Shown: in pieces, positions 3,663 to 54,314 of the stretch
How positions within the stretch are numbered: position 1 is the stretch's first letter
How the letters are laid out: every line of letters starts with the position of its first letter
Assembly: GCA_035610835.1 (NCBI GenBank)
Contig: CM069447.1
Coordinates: 40,351,437 to 40,415,436 of the forward strand
Length of the DNA stretch: 64,000 nt
Origin: Ophiura sarsii
Lineage: Eukaryota; Echinodermata; Ophiuroidea; Amphilepidida; Ophiuridae
Direction: 5' to 3'
Position numbers and translations under genes: made by a program
Notes under the pieces: generated by a model
The model's input: only the letters and a program-made list of their open reading frames with translations
Databases searched by the model: none
Told to the model about the DNA's origin: nothing

Positions 3663-3799
3663 TTGCTTATATTGGGTGTCAACAGTTGCAAGGTATCCGC
3701 CTTTATCCTGGCAATCATTTCGGGCATTCACCCAGGACAGTAAATCTGTTCCATTGTAATAACATTTGTATCCAAAGCCAACCCATCCATCGTCACATT
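3663..3799 (-). CDS. Copy A exon 4: first half of a C-type lectin domain
   Basis: A 137-bp exon starts in phase 1 after ...caataag and ends in phase 0 at CAA followed by gtaagt. Joined to the linker exon it reads ECDDGWVGFGYKCYY, then NARNDCQDKGGYLATVD. This is the start of a long-form C-type lectin domain: the N-terminal hairpin with two cysteines, the aromatic/GW signature, and the first core cysteine followed by GGYLA. Phase and frame agree with the upstream exon, which supports one gene. The second half, with the WIGL and calcium/sugar-binding (EPN or QPD) region, was not found between 1 and 3662, so sugar specificity cannot be predicted; the remaining exons probably lie beyond the left edge. 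An alternative is that this exon is a leftover of a broken gene. Confidence 0.72.
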
Positions 3800-4269
3800 C
3801 TTATTGCATTTAAAAAACAGGATCAATATAATAAACCATAAACATGTTAAATTAATTCAGGGATGCACATATACCTATATATAAGTTGCAATCAGTTGTG
3901 TATAGAGAACGATGCGGTCTCCGTGTTGAATTCCTATGACATCGTCGTGCGAATGCAACAACACCGTATCGACATGTTGCTATATTTGCAAGAGAAACAT
4001 TTTTATGTTTTACATACTTCAGTAATTATTGTGTAATTTTGGGTAACCATAAAAAAAAAAAAACGCTGATAGAACTAGATGTAAAAGAAAAAACATTTTT
4101 TAATTATGTTAAGCAAAATGAATAGTTTTCTTTGTCGATGACTAAAATTTAGTTCTTTTTTGTCAAAGCATTCCTAATTTATCATCACGAGACGATGCGT
4201 CACTCTCGATCATCCAGGGTGTACAAAACATACGATAATGTCAGAAAGATTATAATATTATGGAAACAA

Positions 4270-4645
4270 ATTAATATGAATTTAAATTTTCGATCTCAAC
4301 ACAAGAAATAATTACCTGGAATGTTCAAGTGTGTCTACACCTTTCATCAGCAGACTAATGACTCGACTTGGCCTTTTGGAGGGTTGAGAGAGGGGTCAAT
4401 GAGGCAATTTACATCAGAGCCAACCAACCATCACTCAATAAAGACGGGGGCAGGTACAAATTACCAAGAGTCTATGACCCGATTCTGACGTCACACCTCC
4501 AAAAGGTCAAGTCGAGTCATTAGTCTGCTGATGAAAGGTGTAGAAACACCTGCAAATTCCATGTAATTATTTCTTGTGTTGAGATCAAAAGTTTAACTTC
4601 ATATTATTTATCACCAACACATATGAACTTTCATTCTAATGAAAA
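4270..4645 (+). mobile_element. Minimal Penelope-derived element with inverted ends
   Basis: About 105-base inverted ends (4292-4380 and 4495-4590) match those of the Penelope-like element at 29.7-30.9 kb. Between them lie only about 45 codons, in plus orientation, for the protein's last segment, AIYIRANQPSLNKDGG through HLQKVKSSH and a stop. The right end carries the additional 60-base tail (ttaacttcatattatttatc). It is an extreme 5' truncation, located in intron 3 of copy A. Confidence 0.75.
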
Positions 4646-5656
4646 CAAATTATTTATCAAATGTCTGAGAAAAATGTAATATTTAGATTGGGACGGAGTT
4701 TATGATATTGAGTGATTCAGACAACTAGATAATGTGCCAGCTATTAGCAACGTTCAAAATAATGTTCACATACAAACTGTCTTGGGTTTAATATCGCCAA
4801 TTTGCACGATACCTGCTAGTTTATCACAATTGAAAACCAAAAGATGGTTAGTCTGAATGTTTTCAGTTATTGACCAAGTTCAAGATAACCAATAACATTG
4901 CTTTTTATATTCTATATTTTAATATAAATGGTGGGAGGATACCAAGGACACCTGCTTTCGGACCGTACAAATCCAAAAGTTGCTCATAATGCTGTATCCG
5001 ACATATCTTAGTGTAAATGCTAACTAAGCAGTGGTTGATTTAAAAGAAAATCAAAATGAAAGGCACGTCGCCCGACAAAATCTCTGCCGTGGCAAAACTT
5101 ATTCTGTGTTGTTAGTCAAACAATATTTAATTTCTAAACTTGAAATTCTACTATGTTTTGTTTATATCTCACATAATATATCATGTCCAAATCAGAAAGA
5201 AATAGATAATATTCTATTAATTTATTTTAATACAAATGGAGGCGCAAACGTGCACGTGTTTTGCATGTGATTAACATCGGACTGGTAAGAATACCAGACT
5301 TTGCATCCATGGTTTTTGGAAGGCGGACTTACTTGGCTTTATTTTTTTTTTTGGGGTCGGTAGGTCAATTGTTAGCTTTTTGAAATGCCAAATCACACTG
5401 GAATGATTCATATTTTACATTTTTTCGTTTTCAAAGTCCAAAACAGGACCTTAGATGACTATAATTGACCCCAAATAAAGATGGTTCATTTATGCATATT
5501 AGCTATTATAATGACGGGTTTTGGATGGATCTCAATAGCTTTATTGTACAGATGTACCCTTTTTCTTACCAGATCACCAGAGTATGTAACCCTTTTTTTT
5601 CTGACTTGAATTTTCGAATATATTTCTAATTTTAAACATTATTCTATTGTAACACT

Positions 5657-6567
5657 TACACTGAAAACTTAAACTAGTCAGGCACAGGCTGGACTAACTT
5701 TAAACTAGCCAAGCAGGCTAGTCAAGCCTGCTGGATAGGTTATGGCTGACTTAAGGTTAGTCCGGCTCAGCCTGACTAGCTTGATTTGTTCTGCTTATGT
5801 TAGTCAAGCTGGAGCATTGCTGGACTAGCTATACTAGCTTGATGTGAGTCCGTCCTAAGCTGGACTAGTTTATGCTAGTCGCATTGCTGGACTAGCTTAA
5901 CGTTAGTCAATGCACTGAGATGCAATTTAATGTTCTTATATCAGCTTTAATGTTTTTATTTTAATACAGGTTGACTTATCACTAACCCCACTCAATTGTT
6001 TAAATCTTCTTCATGCTGACTATACACTCTTTAAATATAAGGGTGAGAACAAAAATACTCTAACACAGGACTGAAATTGTTTTCACTCTAAAAGAGTGGA
6101 AGATTATTCTATAGAGAGTGATTTATCCAATTCTCATGTCACTCTCTCACCGAGTGATGAAATTTAAACAAGAATAAATTAATTATTCACTCCGATTCAT
6201 AGATTGATATTCTCTGTTTATCGGAAATAAACACCTCTGATATCATATTCTGCTCACATTACATACAACCATTGCTACGAGGTAATGGTCAAAGAATAAA
6301 ACCTAGTTGAGCGACTTACGTAAAGCTACTCCAGCAATGCTGGACTAGGCTAAAGCTAGTCAAGATTGGCACCATCTGGACTAACTTAAAGCTAGTCGAG
6401 ATATTAGCCTAAACTAGTCCCGCTTAGGACGGACTAATATCAAGCTAGTCGAGCGACTAACGTAAAGCTAATCCATCAATGCTGGACTAGGCTAAAGCTA
6501 GTCAATATGGGCACCATCTAGACTAGCTTTAAGCTAGTCAGGCTGACCAGTTTAGGTTTTCAGTGTA
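5657..6567. mobile_element. Foldback element with GACTAGC-type subrepeats
   Basis: The ends tacactgaaaac and gttttcagtgta are perfect inverted repeats. The two arms (5657-5915 and 6300-6567) are filled with many copies of a short motif, gactagctt or aagctagtc, in opposite orientations, so the arms pair imperfectly along about 260 bases. The 390-base centre is AT-rich with no coding sequence. This is a non-autonomous foldback transposon in intron 3 of copy A; the mobilising transposase family is not clear. Confidence 0.7.
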
Positions 6568-7489
6568 TCTTGTCATATTAAATGATAATTTACTGAATTT
6601 AGGTATTTTTCTGTTAAAGCATTCCAAAATGTATGTCGCTGTTGTTTAGAATAAATGAAAATATGTCATAATTATTTGAGAAACCAAGATAGAGGTTACT
6701 TGGACTTGGTAAGGGGTAACACGAGGGGTCATATATGGGGTCAATCGAGGTCATTTGGGTGACAAATTTGAACTCCGAAAATGTAAGTTAGGTATTTTTC
6801 ATATGTTAAACCAAGTTAGAGATTATATATGGATATGGTATGAGGGTCACGCGAGGGGTCATGTAGGGGTCAATTGAGGACATTTTTGTGACAAATGTGT
6901 AACTTGTAATTTTTGTTTCTGAGTTTTTTTATTTTTACTGTCGGTCGGGCTAATTGAAAAGAGAATGAGTATGTAGCCACCCGCGTAAATACAAATCTGC
7001 ATATGCACAAACTTGGATGGATGAGTTCTTGGACCACTTTACATAATCGCTTATCTCTCCGATTTTATAACGCGCACTTATATCCACCCTACAGGGTGTT
7101 CCAGGCGCGATTGCTAGTATTTCTAAGCTGCAATTAGGAATTCGTCACAATAATTTTGCTTCACCTATGCTATCATAGCAGCACTAATAGCATATTATAT
7201 TGTAATATCGCCCTTTTCAACAGCTACCCAATCTCACTTGGGTCAATGTGGCAATTGAGACTAAGTATCTGGCCCAATGATGACCATGATAACACTTTGT
7301 ACACGGCGGTTCTATAACTCACAACCTTTTGAGTATGAGTCCCACGCTGTTCCGCTGGACCACACGTGATCATGACTGTACATAGTTGTATTCCAGTATC
7401 GAGCGATACTCGTATACCAGTAGCTGGGACCTAAAGGACACCTTTTCCTTATCACATACCATAGCAGATTGGGGTTCCCAGCCGTATAC

Positions 7490-7541
7490 CTGTAGGGCAA
7501 GTATGTTCACACTGGTATCCGTCACAGTAACCATCATCACA
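7490..7541 (-). CDS. Copy A exon 3: four-cysteine linker micro-exon
   Basis: This 52-bp micro-exon encodes 17 residues, CDDGYCDGYQCEHTCPT, plus one base. It starts after the acceptor ttggtttcag (phase 0) and ends in phase 1 before gtatac. Four cysteines are spaced 4, 4 and 3 residues apart, so it could form a tiny disulfide-tied spacer between the PAN domain and the lectin module. The same exon, with one or two changes, occurs in copies B (29576) and C (50337), which strongly supports it being real. I do not recognise it as any named domain; it resembles a fragment of an EGF-type module. Confidence 0.75.
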
Positions 7542-8852
7542 CTGAAACCAACAGAAGCACATTAGTCAACAAATCAACATTTAATCTTGTAATAAAACAC
7601 AATATATTAAGCGACAGTATAAATCGGTTTTATTGCTGTACAACTTGCAGCTTGATGTTAACAAAACGCTGTAAAAAAATGAGGGGTATGGTTTAAATGA
7701 TAGACTTTGCTAATTCCAAACACAAAAGTGCCATATGACGCCAGTAAATCTATGTTTTATCGGTTATTTAAAGGGCCCGTTACTTTTTTAGATTATTACG
7801 TACGTGGATGTTGATACGTATAGTGATTCAAATATTACTTTGCGGCCTATCGTAAAAGTCTCACGTATATGTCAATTATAATACGTATACGTACTGCATT
7901 GAAAACCAGAATGATATGTGTTTGGTTTCTATTCAGTGAAACTCATGATCATGTTTTATAACAAAGGATGATATGTTGGTTGACGATTTCTGTTATTAAT
8001 ACTTTACACGCGGCTTTTGTTTTACCAAATACAAACAGAGCTCCCAGAAACCTTTTTCAACTGTCAATGTCTTTCGGAAGGATTACTAAACCAATTCTAG
8101 GCATGTTTATACTTATTTTGATTTCTCATGGTGATTCTAAATAATGGTAAATAAAGTCAATTTTGAACTTTTTGAATGTAAGGGAGAGGGGGGGGGGGGG
8201 GGGGGCGTGTACACCATCGAGGCAGGTTCGCCCACCACGTGATTCACATCATTGCGGCCACTGGTTGAATTTGACACGCCATGGGTGGTCTTCAATGTTA
8301 TTTTGAATAAATATGAAACAAATAAGTAAGAAGCCATCTTTGGCTTTTTAGATGAATTTGGGTAATTTCGATGAGATCTACATCTCAAAACGATATAAAA
8401 TCCATTAATTTCACATGAAATACTGCAAATTAAGCTCTATAATTTTAGATGGTAGTTAGTACGTATATAAGCATGACGGATATAGGAAAAGCCCAACCTA
8501 TGAACAAATTTTGAGCTCCCGCCATGAAGGATCTCTTAGTGCCTCTTTAAAGTTGACGTCTCTAGGCTATTTCAAATGCAAATGAGGCAAACATTCCCCG
8601 CTCTCCCATATTCTGCAGACGACAGCCGCGTAGAAAGTGTTAAAACATAGGCCTATCATTAACATGATTAATACAACGAAAACACAAAGTACAAAATAAA
8701 AACACATTTTACGTAATGGTATGTTGCTATAAAAGAACTAATCCACACACAGCATTCCTTCGTTAGAAATCATATCATGAGTTTCAATGAATAGCAAAAC
8801 ATATAACTCTGGTCATCAATCAGTGCTAGTTTGGTAGTGCTGTTTTAGATAC
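7542..8852 (-). other. Copy A intron 2
   Basis: Mostly sequence shared with copies B and C. A G tract at about 8188-8206 and its flank are specific to copy A. No exon seen. Confidence 0.6.
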
Positions 8853-9124
8853 CTCATGTCCGTTTTCTTCATGTTGATCATAGTAGCTCCAACCAGAATT
8901 CTTTATGTAATCTTCCGGGTAGTCTGCCTTGGTTGCATCGTTGATCAAACATACCCGATCCACGTTGTGCCAGTTGAAAGAGACGCACTCAAGCACTCTA
9001 TTGCAATACGTTGCACACCCTAAATAATTACGAGCATCAATACCACTCTCCAAGATGTGATTTTGCAGCATGAATCCCGCGGCGTGTTGTCTGTATGCCG
9101 CCTGAGTGCACTCTTGTCGCGATA
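8853..9124 (-). CDS. Copy A exon 2: PAN/apple-like domain
   Basis: This exon of 272 bp encodes about 90 residues and is entered in phase 1 (acceptor ...ttgatag) and left in phase 0 at GAG followed by gtatct. The residues contain the pattern LGCATYCNRVLECVSFNW and a later DRVCLIND, which is the cysteine, aromatic and asparagine pattern of PAN/apple domains (protein or carbohydrate binding in secreted and surface proteins). Five cysteines are visible, an odd number, so one may pair with the linker exon that follows. The domain is uninterrupted here, unlike in copy B. The reading frame runs on past the donor to a stop, but the donor is shared by all copies. Assignment to the PAN superfamily is by motif only; the ligand is unknown. 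Confidence 0.8.
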
Positions 9125-10714: not shown

Positions 10715-10740
10715 CAGACTATAACATCATGAGACACTGT

Positions 10741-12245: not shown

Positions 12246-12284
12246 ATCTTCACGAACTTATATATTTGAGCAAAACTAATCTTC

Positions 12285-13830: not shown

Positions 13831-13957
13831 GTTAAAGGCTTTTCCTTTAATAAAAGACATGTAAAGGCTTTAACTTTTATGAAACGGCTTTAAAAGCAAT
13901 AGAGATTAGGACCATTTAGTAGACCGGGAACCTGTTACTGTTGAGAGTAATGTCACA

Positions 13958-14340
13958 TACACTGCCGCCCATAAGTATTTCCCCCTCTGAAAGCTTGCAA
14001 GTTATCACTGTGTTGTCGACAAAGTATTAAACCATCAGACCCAATTACCATTTCATTGTGTTCATTGTACATTTTATACCAATAAATTCATGTTTCCTAT
14101 TCAGATTCATGATTTAAAAGCATTATAATTCATGATTTTATCGAGCAAGTCAAATTCAGTAAAATCGCCGTAGTAAATCACCTCATGAATATCAATTAGC
14201 TCATTAACGGCAGTGTAACGCTATGGGAATTTTCAACTGAGACCAACTGGTGATGGAAAACTCCATGTGCAGAAATGTATAAATGATAATTGGCATGCGC
14301 AGTTTATTGGAATACCTTCAAAATGAACCATTCAAGCTAA
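13958..14340 (+). repeat. Dispersed repeat with TACACTGCCG ends, copy 1
   Basis: A 260-base core with ends tacactgccg and cggcagtgta (13958-14217) plus about 120 bases of flank shared with copies at 17745-18134 (inverted) and 50704-51040 (same orientation). It contains ttgtgttcattgtacatttt. Non-coding and MITE-like, though the shared flank shows the real unit is longer than the inverted ends. Confidence 0.65.
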
Positions 14341-16824
14341 AACAAGTTATTTTTCTGACGTCGAACTATGTTTTTGGCAGAAATTCATCTTTTTTAAACC
14401 AAATCATATCGGGCCGTAATAACGCAAATTCGGCAAGTTAAAAAAGCACCGGGGACCCATTGACTGTAAATAAGTACTGTTAGAGGATGGACACAATAAT
14501 ATCAGGCCCCTGCCACTCTATTGTTCGAATCGCCGAAAGCATCGACGTACATGAATATACAATGAATAATCATATCAATGAATATACGTCATTTGTGAGG
14601 TCGAAAATGAAAAGTACCAGACCATAGTGGACACGAACGGACGTAATCTTTGAATCTCCGTTGATTTCAATGTTATGTCGGAGTGTTTTACCTAATTTCA
14701 TACTGACACGACCTGAGTGATAATCAAACGGTCCCCGAACGATGCCCTGGCGCTGTTGAAGTCAGAAATATCATCGTTCCCTACAGTCCGAGCGTTCCCA
14801 CATCGAATTTCACCTAGAATATTCGTCACACGAACCTATGTCCGCCATCTTCTGAATATCGAAAAATGCCCTCTGGAGAGTCAAGGGGACAACATTTTTT
14901 TCTACGCATGCGTCCGATCGCTTTGGATTTGTCCACTAAAATTTTGGACAAATGCCTAATGAGTATGTGCTGCATGGCAAGTGACACAACTTCTTGTAAT
15001 GCGCTAATCAACCGTAGATCTAACCCCCGGGCTCCGGCCAGTTTGGGGGTGGAAAAGCCCAATCAGGAAAAGTTCACGGAAAAGATTCAGGCGTTGACGG
15101 TTTTTCAATGGTATATCACAGATAGGCAAAGTGGGTATATCCAGTGACAGTTGTATATCCCCTTGGTATATAATATTTAATTTTGACTAAAGCAGCCGAC
15201 AATGCATTGATTGATGATACCATCCAGAAGTGGTTTGATGTGATAATAATGCCGCCATGAGGATCGAGCCGTGTAGCGAGGGGCCACGCCGAACTATGAT
15301 CGAGAGTGACCAATAACGCGCCGCAATGCGGACCACTGGCGCGCGGCGGGCAGGCACATCCAACATGCGCGAATCAGTGGCGTAGCCAGCTTTAAACAGG
15401 GCCATAGGGAGGGGGAGGGGTGGACTTATCAGACAGTAAAAAGTCCGAGTTGTATACCGACGAAAGGCATGATGTACAGTCAATAAAACCAAGGAGTTAA
15501 CTATGGTGGTAGTGCCCACATGTTGTGGCGAATATAGGGCCTACACTTACTTGCAACATGCAGAGTGACGTGGAATCCGGGGGCCGACTATACGACCGTA
15601 TTAACAGAGCGACAGTAGAATCCGGTGTTTAATTCTTTTTTAATTGAGTGTATTGTTAATAGTCCCGGTTCTGAGCACTTCTCTAGCCCGCCCGGCCGCG
15701 ATCTTTATTACCGTAAACAACATTTGATACCTGACGGAGTAAAGTGCATAGCACATGAACATTGTACAGCAATACATTTATACAGTGAGTGAGTATGGTT
15801 AATAAATTCGCCGCCCGGCCTGTGGGCCTAAATGAGACACCGTGCACTTTGCGCCGTGCATATGCTATAACCATCTAATGATTGGAAGCGGTAGCAGCAT
15901 AAAGTATTATGAGAAAATGTGTACATCTCCTAAGATTCTGGAGATTCGGAGTCTACCATCGGACCGGGCTTTCAGTTGACCTACGCATAGGAGCATCGTC
16001 GAAGTGAGAATGTCCCCTGTAACCTTTTTCAAGATCTTTGGCATTGAAATTAAAATTTTGGTTCATTATAGAGGGAATCCACTTTACTCATACGTGCCCG
16101 TAATCACCCTTCAAAGGTACAAGACTTAATCGCGTCTATCAATAGTTGTCTGATTGCCTTACCACATATATTTCGACATGAATATTGCGTCTCCCAATTC
16201 GTTTATTAAAGCTAGCTAAATTTGGTCCAAGAACTAACTTTCTTGAAATGAAGTTGTACCCACTACCAAAGATTTTCTAGAAATTCATCGGTTGTACAGG
16301 TTAAAAAAAATGGAAATCATGGTAGATTTAACATTGGTATAAACGGTCTCCTTTCTCATGTTGTACGATTGGCTATGGCCTGTTTTGGAAATGTGTTTGC
16401 TCTGTGTATATCCAAATAGCTTACAGTTGTATATTAGCCTAGCTATAACAAGCTATAAAAATGACATCTCTGAATGTATTTTAAACAAAGTGTGCAAAGG
16501 AGAAATGGTTGGGCACACTGGTAAAATGGTTTTACAACAAGTGTTGCTATCATTATCAAAGTGAACTCAACTTCAATCACTTATCATCGAGCAATAATAT
16601 ATTGTTTTACGCATTTAAATGTGTTTAGATTATAAAGTTAAATAAATCCAGAGATAAATGATAGATAGAAAAATAGATTAAAAAAAGAATAGAAAAAAAC
16701 TATAAAAGCATTGGCGGCCTTTATAAATTATAAAAATTGACATAAAAATGATGTTACATACATCCACAATCAAGTTTAATTTGTTTTTTTAAAAAACAAA
16801 AAAATAGAAAACAACAACGAACAC

Positions 16825-16890: not shown

Positions 16891-17744
16891 CGACGAGTGT
16901 AATTGTGTCAGTTTTATCATTTAACCATTGATTCTTTTATTTATAACGAACGGATTTTTATCGTGCCATTTTGGACATTTTAAACCATATTTATATGTTA
17001 CTCTCGCACAAAATGTGTTTGTAATATGATTATACTCCTTATTTTGGAAAGAATGGTAAAAACGTTGACATTTCGAACACAATAAATGGCATCTTGTATA
17101 CTGTTTATACGGTCGCTCGACTGAACGTTGTGTGACCTGTTGCATTGCATTATTCATGTTACGATCTGTTTATGTATGCTTTTGTTATACTTCTCAATCG
17201 CTCATCGCCAACTCTGTACAAGAAACTTCATGCGCTGTCCCAACGCTGTCATTAGAGAACAATAGAAAAGTCCCTTCGACTCTCCAGAGGGCGTTATCTG
17301 CGACCTTTGACTGGGTTCACGGGGTTAATCATATTAATGAGCAAATATGCAAATGAGCTAAGTGTCGCCTCCTATTATATAGCCTTCTTGATAATATCCT
17401 ATTCATCTGATTTGAATAGGATAGTCTAGCTCCCTATTGTTTGGGATTGAGAAGAGAGGTGGCATAGTACAAAAAGGATTTATTATGTCTTGGTATGTTG
17501 TTTATTGAGCGGTCCTTTGTGACGATGAATAGTGGGAAACTCTACTGCTTTGAATCATTCTATTGATAACGTGGTTTGTTATGTCACTGGAGTAAATAGG
17601 TCAATGAACTACGTGCATGCAATCTTTGGAATTTTGCTGGTTCTCCATGTTATTTCAGCCCGAATGTATTGAAAATAATTTAGATGTCCCTTAAAAAAAG
17701 ATGAATATCTGCTAAAAAATATAAACCGTCGTTACAAAACATTG

Positions 17745-18134
17745 TTTTAAAGCTGGAACGGTTCCTTCTGAAGGTATTCCAATAAACTGCGCATACCAAT
17801 TATCATTTATACATTTCTGCACATGAAGTTTTCCATCACCAGTCGATCTCAGTTGAAAATTCCCATAGCGTTACACTGCCGATAATGAGCTAATTGATAT
17901 TCATGAGGTGATTTACTACGGCGATTTTACATTGGAATTTTGACTTGCTCGATAGAATCATGAATTATAATGCTTTTAAATCATGAATCTGAATAGGAAA
18001 CATGAATTTATTGGTATAAAATGTACAATGAACACAATGAAATGGTAATTGGGTCTGATGGTTTAATACTTTGTCGACAACACAGTGATAACTTGCAAGC
18101 TTCCAGAGGGGGAAATACTTATGGGCGGCAGTGT
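17745..18134 (-). repeat. Dispersed repeat with TACACTGCCG ends, copy 2 (inverted)
   Basis: Reverse-complement copy of 13958-14340; core 17872-18134, flank 17745-17871. With copy 1 it makes an inverted pair of about 380 bases 3.4 kb apart, just downstream of the F-type lectin stop codon. Confidence 0.65.
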
Positions 18135-18346
18135 ATATACAGGGGATCAGCAACTTCCTTGGGCTATTTTTTAAACCCGTGCCAACCAAGACCACTTGAA
18201 TTGAATCTGACCACAACAGAGGTAGGGGGACCGGACACACTGTATATAAATCAATCAAGCTCACAGAATTTCCGTATTGAGAGAATATAACGAATCCCGC
18301 TTCCGGCAGCCTGGTGCTATGCATTGGTTTCCAGTTTCCAATACGA

Positions 18347-20205: not shown

Positions 20206-20644
20206 AACGAAAAACGATTGTCCGGTTATATACACGGACCCATTAGCATATTAGTTGGAACGAGTCGTGTGCTTTCTGTTAAAATAGACATGCTTTGTAC
20301 ATAGTGCGATTGTTAAATTCATTTTTCCTGGTCAATAAAGAATTCGACATATGTCTGTTCTTCTGTTTCTTTTAAAGGTATGTGATATTGTTTTCAATTG
20401 ATTACACTTATTTGTTTTCTCTGATGAGGGTTGACTTATCAGGAAAGACTTTCCTCGACTTATAAATCTATATTGACCGTATTTTCCGTAAAAAAACATA
20501 GGCCTATAACTTTACCAAGTTTACTAAATCATAAAGGGAATCTACTTTCAATTTTGGGAATCATAAAATATTCCCTAGTATTCCCGTGGGTATTAATAAT
20601 GGACTCGCCAGGAAAGTTTAGTTTTACTCTTCAAACCCTGATTT

Positions 20645-20790
20645 GAAGTAATTCGGAATCGTATCGTTCTGTAACTCAGAAAATATTTATGATTTTCTGA
20701 CCAGAAATGTAAATCTGCAAGAAAAACAGCTTTAAAAAAAATCAAGGCAATGAGGGCGACCTCTTGAAAAGATCGCACAATATGCCTTTA
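20645..20790 (+). repeat. Single arm of the foldback family
   Basis: Shares ggaatcgtatcg, atctgcaagaaaa and aaaagatcgcacaatatgcc with the right arm at 61405-61564, in one orientation only. Confidence 0.55.
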
Positions 20791-21000
20791 ATAAAAAAAA
20801 TACACATTAGCAAAGTTGCACGCTTCGTTCACATACAAAAATACCGGTAAAATGGACGCCATAATATTAATAAAATATGAAGCGATTCAAGATGGGTTCA
20901 ACAGGTCAATACTAACCGGCTTAGTTTCGTACTTAAGTGTTAAAAATAACGGGATAAACTTAACAAAAACAAATTAATTCAATCTAAAACGTATACTTAC

Positions 21001-29691: not shown

Positions 29692-30856
29692 TAGAATGAA
29701 AGTTCATCTGTGTTGGTGATAAATAATATGAAGTTAAACTTTCGATCTCAACACAAGAATTAATTACCTGGAATTTTCAGGTGTTACTACATCTTTCATC
29801 AGCAGACTAATGACTCGACTTGACCTTTTGGAGGTGTGACGTCAGAATCGGGTCATAGACTCTTAGTAATTTGTACCTGCCCCCGTCTTTGTTGAGTGAT
29901 GGTTGGTTGGCTCTGATGTAAATAGCCTCCTTGACCCCTCTCTCAAACCAACGAGGATCCCTATCCAGGATCTTGACTTTGTCCAAGTCAGCGCTGTGTC
30001 CTGGTGACTCAATATGGATGTGTTGGGATACCTCGGACGAGGTGGAACTAGGACGCCTGTGCTCTAGAAACCGTGTCTTTAATGAGCGTTCGGTTTCTCC
30101 GATGTATGACTCGGAGCAAAGACCCCGGGTAGTCTGACCCTGACAAGGGATCATGTACACTGGGCCTACAGTGTCCTTCTTCTCAGTTTTGTCTTTTGGA
30201 GATACCAGAAGTTGGCGTAGTGTGCGCGTGGGTTTGAAATATGCGCGTATCCCGTAGTTTCCGAAAATCCTACGGAGAGCCTCTGATGTGCCCTTGATAT
30301 AATGCAACACTACGTGTCCTTTTGTCTGTTTCTCACTGTCTTTAGTTTTCGGTTTGACCTTACCCTTAGGTTTGTGGACACGGTCAAATGCCCACTTCTG
30401 GTACCCACACTTGGACAATGCTTTATCAACGTGCTGCTTCTCTGTTGTGATGTCAACCTGGTCAGTGATGACAGTATCAGCCCTGTGGTGTAGCGTTTGA
30501 ATAACGCCCAATTTGTGCTGGACAGGGTGATTTGACGAGAAGTTCAAATATTGATCTGTGTGGGTTGGTTTCCGGTAAATCCTTACGTCAAGGTTACCGT
30601 CTGGTTTAATTACTGTCAGTGTGTCTAGGAAGGCTAATGTCCTGTTGTCTTCACCTTCTGTAGTGAATTTGATGTCCGGATCAATGGTGTTGAGGTGATC
30701 AGTGAACTCTTGAGCATGTTTGGTCTTTATTTTAATGTGCGTGTCGCCTCCAAAAGGTCAAGTCGAGTCATTAGTCTGCTGATGAAAGGTGTAGTAACAC
30801 CTGAAAATTCCAGGTAATTAATTCTTGTGTTGAGATCAAAAGTTTAACTTCATATT
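29692..30856 (-). mobile_element. Penelope-like element, 5'-truncated, with inverted ends
   Basis: The segment carries an inverted terminal sequence of about 105 bases at both ends (29743-29845 and 30745-30840, rich in ctttcatcagcagactaat), with one side running about 60 bases longer. It is flanked by the direct repeat aaaacacaatat (29680-29691 and 30857-30868), a 12-bp target duplication. Copies A (near 7590) and C (near 50440) show the empty site. The inverted piece is a copy of the element's own 3' end, as often seen in Penelope-like retroelements. It sits in intron 2 of copy B. Confidence 0.82.
29807..30755 (-). CDS. Penelope-like protein, C-terminal reverse transcriptase and GIY-YIG part
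   Basis: An open frame of about 315 codons enters from the truncation near 30755 and stops at 29807. The first 80 residues (AFLDTLTVIKPDGNLDVRIY, then RKPTHTDQYLNF) are the thumb end of the Penelope reverse transcriptase. They are followed by the linker KCGYQKWAF and by the GIY-YIG endonuclease: VYMIPCQG, then SYIGETERSLKTRFLEHRR and SQHIHIESPGH, with the catalytic Tyr, Arg and His region visible and a Glu/Asn-containing end (KEAIYIRANQPSLNKDGG). The endonuclease nicks DNA for integration. The polymerase catalytic residues are missing, so this copy is dead, though the frame is unbroken. The usual Met at 30547 is only an internal codon; there is no native start. Confidence 0.82.
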
Positions 30857-34614: not shown

Positions 34615-36484
34615 CACTCGTTTGTCATTATATGGTCGTAAAAATACATTGGTTTAATCATGTACATCAATAATTGTTGGTATCATGAAAAATAGCAAGT
34701 TTTGGATAAATCGTATTTTACAGTGTGTTCCAATTAAATACGTAATGTTTGTGTAAACATGAGATCACGCAATATTATACAAGCAAAGGTTGCCTGGATG
34801 TTTTAAACTATCTTACAAATCATTGCCTTTGTGTACTAGCTCGTGATTGATTGATTATTTGTGTTCTTGATTATGTGAATATCACCTTCTACCGAATGAC
34901 TCGTATTATAGTGTGTTTATTTCAAAATTGACATGTGAGAAATTAGATGTACTTTATGCTTGACTTATTTTGGTTTATATTCCGCAAGATTTCTGCACCC
35001 AATAATTGTTTACCAAATCTGCATTACTTTTATTGTATTGCTAGTATTATTGCTGTTTAGCATACCAGAGTGTTATATATTAAGAGTCATGATTAGTTGA
35101 TTCCAAAGAATATAAAAATATCTTACTTGTTTATTTTGTGAAACTTGCAGTCAACAAAAATAACTGCAAACTCACGATTGGTACCGTGTTCAATTAGTGC
35201 GTGAATTTTAACATTTGTTGTGTGAAGGCATTTAACGCAATATTTTCCTGTGCGCTAACATTTTACCTGTCTCCTGATAATTATGTGTTTCATTTTGCTA
35301 TTCTGATCGTAATATTGTGTCGTTTTTGCATTTGCCAAAAAATACGCGCAGAAAGAATGCGAGGTGCGCTCATTGTTTTGGTGCAGTTATATTTATACGA
35401 CATATTTATGAGTTTTATTGTACGGTAAGAAAGAGTTTGACCTAAATAGGTATTGTGTGCGCGAGATTATTCAATAACGGTATTATATTTTTGGTCATAA
35501 CTTTTGGCACCCACTCAGTATTGATAAACTGTGTCCGTGTGAGGTATTTCATTGTGAACAGGTACTGCGCATAAAGCGGAGTAGCCATTTATTATTGATT
35601 GTGTCTGTGGATTTTGGTTAAAAAGACTAAAGCAAAGCCAAAGCACACCACGATTTGCAGGGATTTAAGAGAGAAGTTTTGATGCACTGGCACGATTTAC
35701 TGACTATAGTTTTGTATGTTATCCTTAGAATCAGAATCAGGAAGGGATCAGGCCGAGATCAGTTTACGATTTAGAAATCTATGCCTATTTTAGAAATGGA
35801 GTGCAATGCAATGCCTTTCTGCTTTATACATTTCGCTAGGCCTTGTCAAAATGTACCTGCTTGGTGAGAAAATCCTAGGCATTTGTCAACAAAGAACTGA
35901 CGGAAAATATGATATTCCAATCATCTACATGTTTTTTTGATAAAGAATCAACCAATCTTTCGCCATCATTCTCGATCATTCATTTGTTTCGAAAGAGCTT
36001 TGTAGCCTCTCCCCTATGTGTGAGCATTCACAATATTCACACACAAAGGTCCTCACTGAGTTCTTTGGTCTTCTTCACCATGCTGACAAAAAGCCTGAGT
36101 GTTGTCCTATAACATCCTTCACTGTACATTCAATATGACACATTTGTAATGCATTCACATTGTATGCACACATCATGAAATAATTGCATGAAAATATCAC
36201 ACAATACAAGAACGTTTGGAATGTCTACAACATGTGTATTATCACAAAAAATGGCCTCAATCCTGAGATTTGGTATGGGGTATGAATAATTTTGGACAGG
36301 CATAAAAACACAATTCTTGTTCAATTTTTGTTATGCAAAAAAAGTTGAGCCCAAATATATTGAGTTGTACTTGCAAACTAACTGTGCGAAAGTTGTACTA
36401 CTCCAGCTGGTATAGATATGAGACAAATGCAAAAAAAAACTTATATTTTTCAAAGGGTACGAATAATTGTGGGTTTAGCTGAAT
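34615..36484. other. Spacer upstream of copy B
   Basis: AT-rich, with no supported gene. 35890-36480 has the phrases ggtatgaataattttgg and gggtacgaataattgtggg, a style of sequence often found near DNA-transposon ends, but I could not define an element. Confidence 0.4.
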
Positions 36485-37660
36485 ATTCACCCTTGAGGAT
36501 GTTCCAGGCGCGATTGTCATTATTTCTACGCTGCCATTAGGAATTCGTCACAATAATGTGACTTCACTTATGTGGCTGCTGACTATCATAATAAGCACTA
36601 ATATTGTAAAATCACCCTTTTCAACAGCTACCCAATATAGCTTGGGTCAATGAGACAACGTATCTTGGCCAATGATAACATGTTTGTTACGGCGGTTCTA
36701 GCACTCACAACTTCATGATTTTAAGTCCCGCGCTGTTCTGCTGGATCATACGTGATCACGACTGACTGTGCACAGTTGTATTCCAGTGGGATTAAATCGA
36801 GACTATTCTTTGGTAATGTCCGAAGGCTGACAGCAAAACTGTTAACTTTATTTGTTTGAAGTGGCTCTTTTTATTTCATTCTTTTCTTCCTTCTTTCCTA
36901 ACTTTCATTTCATTCAACCAGCATGCTTATATAGTCTTTTTAAGCCTGGCCCGAGCATTTTGCAATAGCCTGGTCGCTTAATTTTGCTTGAGACTGGTCC
37001 CTTCAAACAGACAAAGAAACAAACAAAAGTAAAAAAAAGTATTGAAAGAGACCTCTTTATACAAATATTTCAAAATAGGTTAATTTTGCATTCAGTTTCT
37101 GGTTTTCATAAAACTTCCTGTGTGCCAATGTTCTGATCACGCACGTGTTATGAATACGACTTGATTTTGTGTAATGTGCACACTATATCTGCAAAGCAAT
37201 TCATAACAATATTGACACTTCCTAAATCCACTAGCATAGATACAGATGTAATGAATTTATCTGACCAAAATATATTTATAAACATAAATGGATTGCACTA
37301 ATTATCCCGAACAAGACTCCTCTCAACACATATAAACACAAATAATTATTTATAGCAAAATAAATCAATATTATTTATTATAATGCTAAACACAATTGAG
37401 TTACATTATAAAAAAGATACATTAACAATTTACACACAAGAAGTCATATAAATGAAACATAAATTATTAAATATAATTTCATATATGTAATAATGCTGAA
37501 CTTGTTGGATGTGAGCCAAGTAAGAAAGGGTACAAACCCTTTTTGTAATGAATTGATTATTTATGTCCGCATACATATATTTACATGTGCATTGTTATTT
37601 ATTGCCCAATGTCACCATAGTCATTTAATAACCGCGATCCACGATTTAGATAGACATGAC
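36485..37660 (-). pseudogene. Relic fourth unit, internally deleted
   Basis: 36485-36795 matches the intron just downstream of the linker exon in copies A (7090-7400), B (29190-29490) and C (49860-50130), in the same orientation. 37065-37660 matches the 5'-flank duplicon. Everything between, meaning linker exon, PAN exon and signal exon, is missing and replaced by about 270 bases of unrelated sequence. This is best explained as a fourth tandem unit that lost all its coding exons by one internal deletion. It cannot make a protein. Confidence 0.7.
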
Positions 37661-46262: not shown

Positions 46263-46404
46263 TACGTCTAATACTTTTCAAAATGTCCGTCCCAAAAGTG
46301 TTAGGGATAATTAGTATACACTGTTTTTCTAGCAAAGAGTGCAGATAAACTGTCGTGCTAACAGGACAGTCTATTTTCATTTTAAAGTCACTCTAAATCC
46401 ATGA

Positions 46405-46560
46405 TTTTGAAGTAATTAGGAATCGTATCACCCTGTAACTCAGATTGCATTTTATAAGTTATGATCAGAAAATGTAAGTCTGCAAGAAAATCAACTTTCA
46501 AAAATAAATCAAGGTTAGAGGGCATCCTCGGAAAAGATCGCGTAATATGCCTTTAATATT
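46405..46560 (+). repeat. Single arm of the foldback family
   Basis: Shares gaagtaattaggaatcgtatc and gaaaagatcgcgtaatatgcc with 61405-61564. A partner arm was not seen nearby. Confidence 0.55.
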
Positions 46561-49209
46561 ATGCATAGGCAACAGGATGCTGAACTAAAGATCGTCGTCT
46601 GCAAGGACTGGAATCATTAACCGGTGTAGAATCTCATGACTTTGTTTTAAAATATGACAAATTCTATAAGACTAAATATTCTGTATCAATCTATTTGATT
46701 GATCAAAAGTGAACTGGAAACGTTTAAATTGTTTTGTAACACTGTTGTCCTAGTCTGCTATCTACTGAAGATAATATTGTATTATTGGATTAAGAATGCT
46801 TAACAGTCAAATAGTACGTTTCAGCATTTGTACCTTGTTTATTTATATACACCGTGATTACAGCTAGAATTATATAATAATAATAAATATCTTCATATTT
46901 AGAAGTTATAGGCTTCTTTAATACAAGCTTCATGAATATATTGAATTGAATCTATTGCATTTTTGTTTGTTAACTTGATTCAATATCGATATGAAATAAG
47001 GGCTCAGATTTTCATCGCTTGGTAAAAAGGAGGGGGAGGGGGGGGGGGGGGGGGGGGGGGGTGTTCCCGCTCAATTTAAATTGGCTGCCACTATACAGGG
47101 GTCAAACATAAAAATAAATGTTCAATTTAACTAAAAAGCATCATGTTGTCCATGTTTAACAGAACATCGGATATAGCCAAAGTATTCTTAACTTTCTTGT
47201 CTATCCATGTTTCTCCTGGTGCCACACTAGGCTTCTGGACAACAAACCCTCCGAGAGATTATCCTGAAAGATAGAAAAGAAGATGGAATTGTGGTTATTG
47301 GATGAACATCTCCCAGGGCAAGAGAGGTCACAGAGCAGCCATGGTAACTATGTCTTTAGCAATTTTAGACTCATGAACACTATAGCTATATGCTGCAACT
47401 GGCCCAGTGGCCCTCAAATGCTGTTTACTTATATGGACAAAAGTGTCGCTGCTCCATCAGGTATGCAACAGCAACTCAACATAGTAAAAGGTGCCGCAGT
47501 CCCAAAGAGAACTATATATTGCTCTAGTCAAAGACGAAGCCACCTTGATTATTTCTCTCGGACCTGACATTTGACCCCAAGGTCATGGTTGATTTTTCTT
47601 CTTGTCTAATCAAAAGATATCACATGCATCACGTCCGATCAAAATCGGAGCATGTAATACATTTTACATGTGTATAGTGCAATGACCCCTTGTGAACCCA
47701 TATGACATGTCACTTTTGACCGATGAACACCCTATATGTGCATAGATCCAAGGAATCTTTTGACCAATTCTGACAATCACCAGTTATTTCCTCTGAGACA
47801 TTTTAAGTGAAGCATTTTAAGTGAATAGATTGAAGATTTATATTTTGACCATTAGTGACTCCTTCTTGACCTTTGACCTGGTTATGATTATTCACTTTTT
47901 TCTGATCATGTCAAATCAAACAAGATGAAACAAGTTTGGTCCAAATTACATGTATCCAAGGAATCTGTTGACCGATAATGACGGTGAAAAGTCATTTCCT
48001 CTATGACAAGAAGCATTTTAAGTGAACGGATTTAAAATTTACATTTTAACCCCTAGTGACCTTAAATAATTTTGCATTGTAAAAACAAAACTAAAGGGGT
48101 AAAAAAAAGTAATTCCCCCCTAAAATTAGATTACTTTTGTTTACATAACTTCACACACAAAAGAAGGTTCGAAAAGTTGAAACGATTATGAAAGGAGAAA
48201 ACGCTTGGCTACCAAAAATAAGTTTTACATTTTCGAAATCATGTTTACTTTTCCCAAAACAGCCACATTTCCCCAAAATGATGTTTTCAGAAAAAGTGGC
48301 ACTTGGTCCATACCAGTAAATTTAAAAACTCTCTCTCGTTATTTTTTGTACGAAAATTAGACCAAGTTTGTTTGCATAACTCCGCACAGAATTAATCGTT
48401 TTGAGAAATTTAAAAACTTGTCAAAAGAAAAAGTGCTTGGCTTCTCACAGAAAGTTTCTCCTGTTCAACATCATGTTTACTTTCCCCAAAATTGTCTCAT
48501 TTTCCCAAAACGATGTTCTCAGAAACAGTGGTAATTTTCAAAATTAATCGCGGAAGACCCCTTATGTGCAACGAACCAAAGCAAGGAATCTTTTGACAAG
48601 TTTTGACAGTCATCAGTCATGACGCACTTTAAGTGAAAAGAGAAAAAGATAACATTTTGACCCCTAGTAAACCCAAATATGTTTTTATTTTAAAAACCGA
48701 ACTATTATGTATGCGTACTGTCATAAGGAAGTATTATGTGGACCGATTCTGAACATTCTAAGTCATTTCACTAAATTGCAAAGCCACATGCAGTTAACAC
48801 TACATATTTTTTCAAGTTATTTAAAATTAAATTAAAGTACTCTAGTTTTGAATCCATCCGCGAGGCTACTGCCTCTTTCGACACCTAAATGTAATTGCAA
48901 AGTAGCCGGGTAGCCCAAATTTATTGTTGAAGGGACTTTTAATGAACTAAAAACACCATTTTGATTTCCGATTTATATTTCCTGGTTTTATTTCCCTGTT
49001 TTAACATTTAAACGCCACCAGTTAGTGGGTAGTCCAAAAATTAATGGACTTAATCGAGTTCACAATGAAACTGTTTCTTTTTAATATGTTTTGTTGTGCT
49101 CTATTTGTATTACATGAGCTTTTAACAAAACTATACTACTACTACTACTACTTTTACAAAACAGTGCCCCCCCCCCCCCCCCCCCCCCCCCCACCCCCAG
49201 GACACTTAC

Positions 49210-49503
49210 TCCATAGATCAAAGACACTGTTCCTATTACCAGCTCCACATTTCTGCAAAGAATTCCCGGTGCATTCCATATCGCATTCATCACCCGGAGC
49301 TTCGCCGTGTTTGTCATAAAACACTTTGTCCGCACCACACCAACACGCGTTTGAATTTTGCATTGCTACGTAGCGTTTGCCAGTATCTCGACAATGGTTG
49401 AAACAATGGTCGTGTGTCATAGAAGAACTATCAATACGGTCATCTGGGACAGCTCTATCTGTAATTTTGTCGATATAACATCCGAGGTACTGAGGCGGGT
49501 ATT
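49210..49503 (-). CDS. Copy C exon 4: WSC domain
   Basis: A 294-bp exon, phase 1 in (acceptor ...attgtag) and phase 1 out (TGGA followed by gtaagt), encoding 98 residues. It begins EYPPQYLGCYIDK, continues with HDHCFNHCRDTGKRYVAMQ, then ACWCGAD, DECDMECTG and QKCGAGNRNSVFDLW. The eight cysteines and the spacing GCY, CxxxC, CWCG, CxxxC, CGG-like are those of the WSC domain, a putative carbohydrate-binding module first known from yeast wall-stress sensors and also found in animal polycystin-1 and kremen. The phase matches the linker exon 0.8 kb upstream. The exit in phase 1 means at least one more exon, which I could not find; a 27-base C tract lies directly after the donor. It is the third different module attached to the same front. 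Confidence 0.8.
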
Positions 49504-50336
49504 CTACAATAATGAAGACAATTGAATATGGATTGTATTTATATGTCGTGCTATTTCGTGCTAAAAGTTCATCCTCAACACAATATTGTACGCAGAACAG
49601 GCAATATTTTTATTGTGGACAAAATAAAATCTATTTCTTTTTTGCCTATCACATTTTGATGACTAGTGACTGTAAAAAACGGGGAAAAACCAGAACAAAT
49701 AATTGACACCCGGCTGGGCGTGTTGTTAATCTTTGTGCTGCAATGGGGGTTCGAAGTTAGGTACGTGTATGGGATTGGCTGGGTGGTGTCGGTGGGGATG
49801 GTGGTTGTTTTCGGATCGAGATGGGTGTGATGTAACATGAAATTCAATAAAATGCTGGCGCGTTGTCATTATTTTTTACGCTGCCATTAGGTATTCGTCA
49901 CAATAATTTCGCTTCACCTATATGGCTGCTGGCTATCATCATATCAGCACTAATAGCATCTTAAAACAGCTACCCAATCTCACTTGGGTCAATGAGGCAA
50001 TTGAGACTAAGTATGATTACCATGAAACACTTTGTTCACGGCGGTTCTATAACTCACAACCTTTTGATTATGAGTCCCACGCTGTTCCGCTGGACCACAC
50101 GTGATCATGACTGTACATAGTTGTATTCCAGTATCGAACGAAACTCGTATACCAGTAACTGGGACCTAAAGGACACCTTTTCCTTATCACATACCGTAGC
50201 AGATTGGGGTTCCCAGCCGTATACCTGAAGGGCAAGTGTATTCCAGTATCGAACAATACTGGTATACCTGGCCGGACTCAAATGACAACTTTTTCTTATC
50301 ACATACCATCGCAGATTGGGGTCCCCAGCCGTATAC

Positions 50337-50388
50337 CTGAAGGGCAAGTATGTTCACACTGGTATCCGTCACAGTAGCCATCATCACA
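50337..50388 (-). CDS. Copy C exon 3: four-cysteine linker micro-exon
   Basis: A 52-bp exon, phase 0 in and phase 1 out, encoding CDDGYCDGYQCEHTCPS. It is identical to copy A but for the last residue. Just downstream the donor-side sequence cgtatacctgaagggcaag is present a second time (about 50215-50236), showing a small tandem duplication of the exon edge and intron start; only the first copy is joined to a complete exon. Confidence 0.75.
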
Positions 50389-50703
50389 CTGAAACCAAAA
50401 GAAACACATTAGTCAACAAATCAACATTTAATCTTGTAACAAAACACAATACATTAAACAACAGTAGACACCGGTGTTATTTGCTTTACAACTTGCATCT
50501 TGATGTTAGGAATACGCTGTAATGAGAGTGTGGTTTAGATTATAGACCTGGAGTGATCTCGTAAACCATTATTGTATGTAGTTACACGTACGCATTTGTA
50601 TCAGTAAAAACTGTATTATTTGTTTACATCACAAAGCTTATCAATCAAAGACTCCAATTCGCAAATTCCAAACACTGAAAGTGCCACATGACGCCGGTAC
50701 ATC

Positions 50704-51040
50704 TACACTGCCGCGCAAAAGTTATTCTCCCTCTGGAAGCTTGCAAGTTATCACTGTGTTGTCGACAATGTATTAAACTTTCAGACCCAATTACCATTTC
50801 ATTGTGTTCATTGTACATTTTATACCAATAAATTCATGTTTCCTATTCGATTTCATGATTTAAAAGCATTACAATTCATGATTTTACCGAGCAAGTCCAA
50901 ATTTTAATGTAAAATCGCTGTAGTAAATCACCTCATGAATATCAATTACCTCATTATCGGCAGTGTAACGCTATGGGAATTTTTAATTGAGATCAACTGG
51001 TGATGGAAAACTTCATGTGCAGAATTTTATAAATGATAAT
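50704..51040 (+). repeat. Dispersed repeat with TACACTGCCG ends, copy 3
   Basis: Same family and orientation as 13958-14340, located in intron 2 of copy C; absent at the same place in copies A and B, so it moved after the duplications. Confidence 0.65.
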
Positions 51041-51399
51041 TGGCTCTATCTCAATGATTACTGAACCAATACTAGGCATGTTTATACTTATTTTAATGCA
51101 TTTTGCACGGTGATACCAAATATGGCAATTAAATTAAATAATTTGAAACATGTTATTTTGCAGACGCCTGCCGCGAAGAAAGTGTTAAAACAAAGGCCTA
51201 TCATTGGACAGAATAAAAAGAAAACACAAAGTACACAGAAACGTTCACATTTATTTACGCAATGATATCTTGTTATGACAGGACTAATAAAAAAACAGCG
51301 TTCCTTTGTTAGAAAACGTAATATCATGAGTTTCATTATAGCAAAATATATAACTCTGGTCATCAATCAGTGCTAGTTTGGCTGTGCTGTCTTAGATAC

Positions 51400-51674
51400 C
51401 TCATGTCCGTTTTCTTCATGTTGATCATAGTAGCTCCAACCAGTATTCGTTATGTAATCTAACGGGTAGTCTGCCTTGATTGCATTGTTGATCACACAGG
51501 CCCGATCCACATCGTGCCAGTTGAAAGAGACGCACTCCAGCACTCTATTGCAATACGTTGCACATCCTAAATAATTACGAGCACTGTTAATGCCACTCTC
51601 CAAGCCGTGATTTTGCAGCATGAACCCCGGGGCGTGTTGTATGTATGCCGCCTGAGTGCACGCTTGTCCGGATA
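51400..51674 (-). CDS. Copy C exon 2: PAN/apple-like domain
   Basis: A 275-bp exon, phase 1 in (acceptor ...ttgctag) and phase 0 out (GAG followed by gtatct). It is three bases longer than copy A, adding one residue in GINSARN, and so keeps the frame. The core LGCATYCNRVLECVSFNW and DRACVINN is conserved, with Ala for Glu at the start (GQACTQAAY). Compared with copy A the changes are scattered amino-acid replacements with no stops, so this copy looks functional. Role: PAN-type binding module of a secreted protein, ligand unknown. Confidence 0.8.
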
Positions 51675-51774
51675 CTAGCAATATGATACAAGGAAACATG
51701 ATATGAATATACATGCTTTGTACAATATCAACTTCGAAAGTCAATTCGATCTTGTAACTAAATTTATTTACCTA

Positions 51775-52240
51775 TACACTGCAAAAACACCGGTGTTAAA
51801 AATAACACCGTTCGGTGTTCTGAGAGGTCCACACCAATTAGTGTTATTTTAACACTATCTTGGTGTTACATTAACACTTACAGTGTTACATTAACACTTA
51901 CAGTGTTACATTAACACTTACAGTGTTACATTAACACTTACAGTGTTACATTAATACTTACAGTGTTACATTAACACTTACAGTGTTACATTAACACTTA
52001 CAGTGTTACATTAACACTTACAGTGTTACATTAACACTTACAGTGTTACATTAACACTTACAGTGTTACATTAACACTTACAGTGTTATTTTTCACACTT
52101 GCAGTTGTTAAAATGACACTACATGGTGTTGATATAACACCAACAATTTAACACCTGTACACCGGTGTTAATTTTTTTTGGTGTGGACCTCTCACAACAC
52201 CAATGGTGTTATTTTTAACACCGGTTTTTTTTGCAGTGTA
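51775..52240. mobile_element. Inverted-repeat element carrying a 20-bp minisatellite
   Basis: The ends tacactgcaaaaa and the complement ttttttgcagtgta bound an element whose subterminal parts (ccggtgttaaaaataacacc) are also inverted. The core is about 11 tandem copies of a 20-base unit, cagtgttacattaacactta, from 51863 to 52088, with one variant copy. Copies A (near 9223) and B (near 33130) lack it at the equivalent place, so it was inserted into intron 1 of copy C at a TA-containing site. Confidence 0.75.
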
Positions 52241-52399
52241 AGAGCAGCCACAGTGCCCTCAGAATTATTTCATTTTTGCTATCATACGCAGGCGAATATT
52301 TTAAGAATCAGGTATCTTTAACCCTAACCAGCCAAGCTAAGTCTTTGTGTAAAAACCGGGGGAGGGACATAACATATGATTTTTTTACCCAAATAATCA

Positions 52400-52466
52400 C
52401 AGCGAAACCCCAGAGATCGACCCCGGGTCCTCCGATCGCCACGTCCCTAACCACTCAGCTAACCTG
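52400..52466 (-). repeat. tRNA-derived SINE-like sequence, copy C intron 1
   Basis: Counterpart of 9400-9486 with A box ttagctgagtggttaggg and B box ggggtcgatctc. The A box is closer to the tRNA consensus here than in copy A. In copy B the corresponding stretch (about 33250) is missing. Confidence 0.5.
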
Positions 52467-52537
52467 CCAACTTTCGCCCGGGCAGCGATATCGTACATAT
52501 CAGCTTGTTTGATGACGTCATCTAATCAAATGCTGTA

Positions 52538-53805
52538 TTTTTTCAATTCAATTCAATCCTATTTATTCAGCAAAAATGAATACATAATGTGAGAAAGAGG
52601 ATAGGAGCCCGAATAGAAACCCTGACGAGCGGGCTTATAATGGGGACCCTTAACACAGAAAAATGAATGGTAGCATTTTAAAGAACTATAAGAACAAGAG
52701 ATATAAAAAACCTAAACAAGACCATACAGAACATTACACAGACAATACATGACCAAAAGAAATAAACAAATAATTGAACAAGTCAAGAGAAAGAGACGAA
52801 ATACATAAACGGAACAGGATACAAACGTTGCCAAGGAAAAGTAAGTAAGGGAGCACATCAAAACTCGACCTCCCGGCAACCACCGGTTCCGTGCAGTTCT
52901 GTGAGGTTGCAGCCGATTTCTATTGTTCTAAACAATGATATGCGGTCCAACCGGGCGGAACCGCCGGTTGCCGCGCGGTCGAGTTTTGATGTGCTTCTTA
53001 ATTAACTTTGCGTACTTCAAGAGCAGCGTTAAAAATAAGAACAATAACTTAGTTATCCAGCGGATAACTCAGGTTGAACCTTCTGAACCTTCTGAAGATT
53101 TAGTCAGCAGGGCAGGATTAAATCCGCAAATCGCTAACTTGAGGTTGAGATTTTGGTTATCCGCCAACATTTTTGGTTATCCGCAACTTAATCACGCTTC
53201 CAAGTGCACTCACTGGATGAGACTTCCACTATATCCTCGATCACAGCAACACGATTCGGTTTATACAACGAGAGTGAATGATGGGTTAGATTTTCGTAGC
53301 CATCTAAACATGTGGCTTCGTAATCAGATTCACTGTTTACAAGTTAGGAAGTATATATTTGGGAAATTATTGAATTTTGAGCTCAAAACAAAATATTGGT
53401 TATCCGCCGGATGATCGGCAAGGAAAAACTGGTTATCTGCCAGTAAAGTTAGTTATGTTGGATGCCCGGATTACCGCTATTTCGAACACTGTTCAAGAGG
53501 AATGAGGGAGGAAGGAATAAAAATGAAGGATAAAGGAGAGAGAAAGTAAGACGGGTGAAGAAAATTATGTATTTTCAAGAGAAATGGTGTTGTGATATGT
53601 GTGCATGTCATAAGAGATAAGAGAAGATGTAACGTAGCTTGAGCTGCCTTTCAAATGATTGATTGTTTGTGATCTGTGTGAGTGTATGGGGAGATCGTTC
53701 CAAAGCTTTGCACCGTGGTAGAGAATCTGATGTTTTTCAGCGGTGGTATAGTTAGGAAAGGAAGATGACATTTGTGAGCTTGCCTTGTGTGGTGTGCGTC
53801 ATCAA
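52538..53805. other. Insertion in copy C intron 1
   Basis: Copies A and B lack this 1.27-kb stretch. It includes an inverted pair, 52852-52895 with 52960-53003 (cacatcaaaactcgacc and its complement), a 159-codon plus frame at 52935-53414 rich in repeated ggttatccgcc phrases without a domain, and a LINE tail at 53545. Confidence 0.5.
53545..53805 (-). pseudogene. LINE 3'-end scrap
   Basis: The minus-strand frame reads DDAHHTRQAHKCHLPF, then ILYHGAKLWNDLPIH and KGSSSYVTSSL, the typical last segment of CR1/L2-type polyproteins (H-T-R then W-N-x-L-P). Only about 85 residues remain. It is part of a 1.27-kb insertion (52538-53805) in intron 1 of copy C that copies A and B lack. Confidence 0.55.
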
Positions 53806-54262
53806 ACTGTAACATGCGCGTAGACATTGTGTTTTGCCGTATTGAATCGTAGGTCCCAGGAAGGTTAGGGTGAATATTTATTGTAGTTAGATATATATAC
53901 ATGTATAATATTGAATAACATATAAAGACTAGGTCAAACTGGCCTCAACGAAATTAACAAATACCTTATACACACGGTTTTGAACGTTCATTTTAAATAA
54001 TTTATTCCGTCGTGTTTGCCACGTAGCTATGTATCAGTTATGGTGATGTAAATGCCTGGTACATGCACAATAATAAATATAACACTAAACAAAGATCCAT
54101 TTCCGTACTAATGTAATGAAATCGATCACATTTTCTAATTGCAAGGGGTTTTCAAGCCCTGCACGGCTACATCTTTTGAATTATTAAAACAAACCCAAAC
54201 AACAACAACAAAACAACAACAATAGCAGCAACAACAACAACGACATGTTTTGTGTATCTCAC

Positions 54263-54314
54263 CTTTGTACTGGACAATGTGTACAGCAACAATTAACACC
54301 AGACGAAGAGCCAT
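54263..54314 (-). CDS. Copy C exon 1: signal peptide
   Basis: A 52-bp first coding exon encoding MALRLVLIVAVHIVQYK, one codon shorter than in copies A and B, ending in phase 1 at AAAG followed by gtgaga. The hydrophobic core is kept, so it should act as a signal peptide. Loss of exactly three bases, not one or two, is what a selected reading frame would show. The intron that follows starts with the same AAC-rich microsatellite as the other copies. Confidence 0.78.

Follow-up and report, generated by a model that had tools for sequence, protein, structure and literature searches.

A 64,000-nucleotide stretch of the Ophiura sarsii genome (assembly GCA_035610835.1, contig CM069447.1, positions 40,351,437 to 40,415,436; hereafter the window) carries on its minus strand three closely related gene fronts, each composed of a signal-peptide exon, a PAN exon and a cysteine-rich linker exon. 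These fronts, designated A, B and C, stand ahead of a C-type lectin half-domain, an F-type lectin and a WSC domain, respectively. Comparison of the copies indicates that the fronts were duplicated and that the binding modules were not. The original prediction had taken the locus for a secreted recognition family that diversifies by swapping its binding end. This is borne out only in part, as duplication took in the front, ended some 0.4 kb beyond the linker and included no module.

The extent of the duplicated unit was determined by comparison of the window with itself. Counted from the ATG, similarity between the copies reaches back about 0.8 kb, and on the other side it extends about 0.4 kb beyond the linker, which amounts to a cassette of about 4.3 kb in A. 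At least four copies are present, all on the minus strand, the fourth (D) being gutted. The cassette edges, as defined by alignment, largely coincide. On the 3′ side those of A, B and D lie no more than about 20 bases apart, and C stops 24 to 44 bases earlier; on the 5′ side A, C and D agree to about 25 bases, and B is without that end. Since the cassette contains no module, the front was the copied piece. Joint duplication of modules and fronts was rejected, because the only tblastx matches of at least 40 bits among the three downstream stretches, beyond the cassette, are presumed repeats. Likewise, no C-terminal exon common to the units was seen among these stretches at the same threshold.

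In all three fronts the signal-peptide exon ends in phase 1, the PAN exon is entered in phase 1 and left in phase 0, and the linker exon is entered in phase 0 and left in phase 1. Nucleotide identity per exon is 90-95% in each of the three pairwise comparisons. The positions and the phases 1, 0 and 1 originally assigned to the fronts thus hold, except that the linker exon, given as 52 bp, is probably 82 bp long. The end at 52 bp, with a weak donor score of 1.3, was dropped on this ground in favour of the end at 82 bp, where phase 1 is kept and the donor scores 3.8 in A, 3.8 in C and 2.3 in B; scores of at least 3.8 are reached at 0.066% of positions on both strands. A strict scan of both strands of the window for phase-1 signal-peptide exons returned three matches on the minus strand, all of them the fronts, and none on the plus strand. 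Looser settings gave minus/plus counts of 4/0, 4/2 and, for the loosest, 6/8, so that discrimination is confined to the strict setting. PAN membership was scanned in fronts A and C, and only A passes the Pfam PAN_1 cut-off of 21.4 bits (26.5 bits, and 27.2 bits for the spliced front), C scoring 20.2 and 18.2 bits.

The substitution pattern indicates that the fronts evolve as coding sequence, with A and C intact and under significant constraint. Changes between A and C affect 14 of 85 synonymous sites and 19 of 320 nonsynonymous ones, corresponding to a synonymous divergence (dS) of 0.186, a nonsynonymous divergence (dN) of 0.062 and a dN/dS ratio of 0.33 (Fisher p 0.003). The same test gave p values of 0.001 for A-B and 0.015 for C-B, rounded fractional site counts being used throughout. 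As predicted, a PAN exon was found in each of the three units, but front B is frameshifted. Up to its stop, the dN/dS of B is low (0.27 against A and 0.42 against C), which suggests that the damage is recent or reflects a sequencing or assembly error.

The WSC module matches the Pfam WSC profile over its full length (positions 1-82 of 82) with 65.2 bits against a cut-off of 27.8, which places it in the family, and Kremen-1 is its nearest solved structure (PDB search, 5e-11). Its exon ends in a phase-1 donor. A poly-C run (49167-49198; poly-G on the minus strand) lies directly behind this donor, and reading straight on from WSC leads to a stop beyond the run. The F-type lectin module aligns over the whole domain with solved F-type lectins (3cqo, FBP32, E 6.3e-45; 1k12, 2.1e-19) and belongs to this family; the Pfam F5/8-type match reaches 69.5 bits. 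The fucose motif of F-type lectins is HX26RXDX4R/K, and an exact HX26RXDX4R match starts at residue 41 of the translation of 143 amino acids. Because the donor at the end of exon 3 is poor (-2.3) and is followed by an in-frame TAA, this exon is probably terminal and ends the protein. A protein-relative search recovered two exon-sized matches to the F-type lectin, 63% and 57% identical, covering about half the domain. The third module corresponds to the first half of a C-type lectin domain. It scores 16.8 bits with Pfam Lectin_C, under the cut-off of 22.6, and does not qualify as a complete domain. A phmmer search of the PDB matched CD69 at 1.1e-8 over one stretch, the top row (1e-11) being a sum over several domains of one receptor. 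The second half may lie beyond the window. Directly ahead of the half-domain, on the minus strand, 3979-3875 is a possible cysteine-containing phase 1-1 exon with no domain match. The three modules are unrelated to one another, as predicted; WSC and the F-type lectin are solid, and the C-type lectin is represented by its first half only. The claim that all modules are entered in phase 1, which would make a junction frame-safe, was confirmed for the domain-giving frames of all three.

Table 1. Features of the PAN-front locus. Positions are those of the window.
Feature	Positions	Strand	Remarks
Cassette copy A	11405-7060	minus	upstream region and three exons; ends about 0.4 kb after linker
Front A signal-peptide exon	10605-10551	minus	ends in phase 1, donor GTGAGA
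Front A PAN exon	9124-8853	minus	intact; Pfam PAN_1
Front A linker exon	7541-7460	minus	82 bp, donor GTATGT
C-type lectin domain, first half	3799-3663	minus	ends in phase 0
Cassette copy B	34583-29163	minus	left end truncated, internal insertions
Front B signal-peptide exon	33956-33902	minus	ends in phase 1, donor GTGAGA
Front B PAN exon	32159-31889	minus	1-bp deletion, in-frame TGA near end
Front B linker exon	29627-29546	minus	82-bp form
F-type lectin exon 1	21549-21424	minus	phases 1-1
F-type lectin exon 2	21090-21001	minus	phases 1-1
F-type lectin exon 3	18802-18590	minus	poor donor; in-frame TAA starts two bases on
Cassette copy C	60881-49857	minus	split by LINE-like insertion
Front C signal-peptide exon	54314-54263	minus	ends in phase 1, donor GTGAGA
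Front C PAN exon	51674-51400	minus	intact; PAN_1 just under cut-off
Front C linker exon	50388-50307	minus	82-bp form
Tandem duplication, 112 bp	50349-50122	minus	repeats 3′ part of linker C plus a second donor
WSC domain, one exon	49503-49210	minus	phases 1-1; Pfam WSC 6.6e-18
Cassette copy D (gutted)	37651-36483	minus	both ends kept, three exons lost; matching pieces 37053-37651 and 36483-36787

Several other sequences were observed in and around the cassettes. The post-linker blocks of A (7060-7459) and C (49857-50194) are 92% identical, against 84% for the intron after PAN; gene conversion is one possible reason. An open frame of 828 amino acids (57972-60458, minus strand), resembling a long interspersed nuclear element (LINE), is inserted in the upstream part of cassette C; its match to reverse transcriptase is strong and those to endonuclease are weak. 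Another of 316 amino acids (29807-30757, minus strand), which we take by eye to be Penelope-like, lies in the PAN-linker interval of unit B and has no Pfam match. A repeat family with copies 91-93% identical occupies 13957-14398, 17691-18138 and 50701-51044, the last in the PAN-linker intron of unit C. A tandem repeat is found at 51863-52088 (20-bp unit, 11.3 copies, 99% matches), and an imperfect inverted repeat at 61183-61564 has relatives at 20623-20798 and 46375-46558. Rfam and tRNA scans were empty.

In the mechanism that we favour, the copied cassette is the 5′ portion of a gene for a secreted PAN-domain protein, comprising the upstream region, signal peptide, PAN domain and linker with its phase-1 donor, and three of its copies lie ahead of unrelated phase-1 modules. 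Transcripts begun in a front would carry the linker, still in frame, into whichever phase-1 acceptor follows, and the products would be secreted, with the PAN front in common and with differing binding ends. Splicing of the fronts onward to modules in some form is likely, and the chances are about even that at least two fronts are joined to the module behind them; such joining would amount to domain swapping. Onward splicing is favoured by the donor located exactly at the end of the linker and by the fronts being the sole strict phase-1 signal exons of the window. Co-transcription of front and module is deduced from the arrangement, as would be any role in recognition. When gutted D is left out, a front is followed by a module three times in succession on the same strand, an arrangement expected by simple arithmetic in 1 of 20 orders of three fronts and three modules. 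As a rival start between a front and its module, one weak candidate was found (50023). Moreover, AATAAA and ATTAAA are absent from all four post-linker blocks (400, 383, 338 and 305 bases in A, B, C and D), where weaker variants are present. Such absence would be natural for a linker with further exons behind it, although by our own estimate it is also common by chance.

Other observations weigh against such joining. All modules lie outside the copied unit, and in all three fronts an in-frame stop occurs within three codons after the linker donor. The PAN exon of B is 271 bp long, one base short of the 272 bp of A, and this deletion brings a TGA into frame near its end. The acceptor of the C-type lectin is poor (-2.2), and neither exon scan nor motif search of the remaining 3662 bases revealed a recognisable second half of this domain. 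The match in phase of the modules is weak support, class 1-1 being ordinary for extracellular modules. Between WSC and unit B the exon scan gave three candidates, none convincing or with a recognisable domain. In the other stretches it gave one unconvincing candidate between linker A and the C-type lectin, one after the F-type lectin that is not convincing either, and none between linker B and the F-type lectin or after the C-type half; a stricter run returned none in all five stretches. Although the scan recovers WSC and F-type exon 1, the C-type half and F-type exon 3 would fall below its thresholds, on the acceptor and donor scores given above, and its silence is therefore weak evidence. 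Among 64 cysteine-rich open reading frames (30 on the plus and 34 on the minus strand), the richest 30 were read by eye and no further module was recognised. The prediction of three genes with one front for each module fits order, strand and phase; however, front B is frameshifted, the module of A is half a domain and the WSC donor is without a convincing partner. We consider strict one-to-one joining doubtful.

Two of the alternatives distribute the same exons among other genes. In one, a single larger mosaic gene would run from front C through WSC and, after about 28 kb, into the F-type lectin, whose TAA would end the protein. B and gutted D would then be nested dead copies within the intron, and a separate or neighbouring gene would comprise front A and the C-type lectin. 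The phases allow this join equally well, as WSC is left and F-type exon 1 is entered in phase 1, and the broken front B, the lack of a convincing exon behind WSC within its own interval and the in-frame TAA at the end of the F-type lectin are all in keeping with it. However, the low dN/dS of B up to its stop speaks for recent damage or a sequencing error, read-through from WSC meets the stop after the poly-G run, the insensitive exon scan weakens the argument from the missing exon, and an intron of 28 kb is required. We regard such a gene as somewhat unlikely. In the other, each cassette would be a complete small gene of signal peptide, PAN and linker with its stop just past the linker, the post-linker block serving as 3′ untranslated region, and the modules would belong to genes with first exons elsewhere. 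The in-frame stops directly after all three linkers are what this arrangement predicts, and all four cassettes end about 0.4 kb beyond the linker, as in a whole-gene duplication. It accounts poorly for the good phase-1 donor located exactly at the linker end and for the missing AATAAA and ATTAAA (with the reservation about chance made above), and no other strict signal exon is available in the window to serve the modules. It is decidedly unlikely.

That the locus is decaying, its fronts and module exons being remnants left by duplication amid transposable elements and its working genes few or none, appears very improbable. The frameshift in B, the gutting of D, the half C-type lectin and the LINE-like and other insertions in the cassettes would suit it, but fronts A and C are intact and significantly constrained, and the WSC and F-type lectin exons are open and encode full domains.

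The closest parallel seen in print is provided by the molluscan VIgL genes of Biomphalaria (FREP, CREP and GREP), described in the part of the source used here as a signal peptide and immunoglobulin superfamily (IgSF) front followed by fibrinogen, C-type lectin or galectin ends (PMC10875847). A common secreted front, alternative lectin-type ends and a multigene group are features of both systems, the O. sarsii case being read from its genome with the joins deduced. Here, however, the front is PAN plus a cysteine-rich linker, the ends are WSC, F-type and C-type lectin, and a single locus contains a copied cassette without module. Pfam scans of fronts A and C gave PAN families and no immunoglobulin family, so that the IgSF front of VIgL proteins was not found. 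Mosaic F-type lectins combine the F-type domain with other extracellular domains, including an example in sea urchin and C-type lectin domains in fish (PMC5712786, in part); the domain combination is alike, but a PAN front is not among the partners described in that part. Sea urchin SRCR expansions are said in the portion cited to include receptor genes with WSC and F5/8 partner domains (PMC10855680), whereas none of the exons scanned in the present locus yielded an SRCR domain. In class 1-1 exon shuffling in Metazoa, modules bounded by phase-1 introns occur in secreted proteins with a signal peptide, and class 1-1 modules predominate among the extracellular proteins of animals, according to the section consulted of PMC8001218. 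In the present case it is the 5′ front, and not the binding module, that seems to be the copied piece.

We did not notice a PAN-front combination like this one in the literature listings that were searched, which is not proof of its absence. No relative of the front was found among 35 candidates or in a further search (1 candidate) of a collection possibly poor in animal proteins, and this result is thus no evidence of rarity. Comparison of front A with solved structures yielded 33 rows at chance level (best E 0.28).

If fronts and modules are not joined, the locus is a caution against linking exons by order and phase, phase 1 being the default for extracellular modules. If they are joined, it would be a case of domain shuffling with the copied piece and its borders still legible, and a parallel to the snail VIgL genes with another front, that is, a variant of the known lectin-mosaic kind. 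More speculatively, and on balance unlikely, the promoter-bearing PAN front with its fixed edges may be a mobile alternative first half, copied repeatedly ahead of class 1-1 modules. Each landing would be frame-safe and would create a new secreted protein, possibly by way of nested alternative promoters within one large WSC-F-type-C-type lectin gene.

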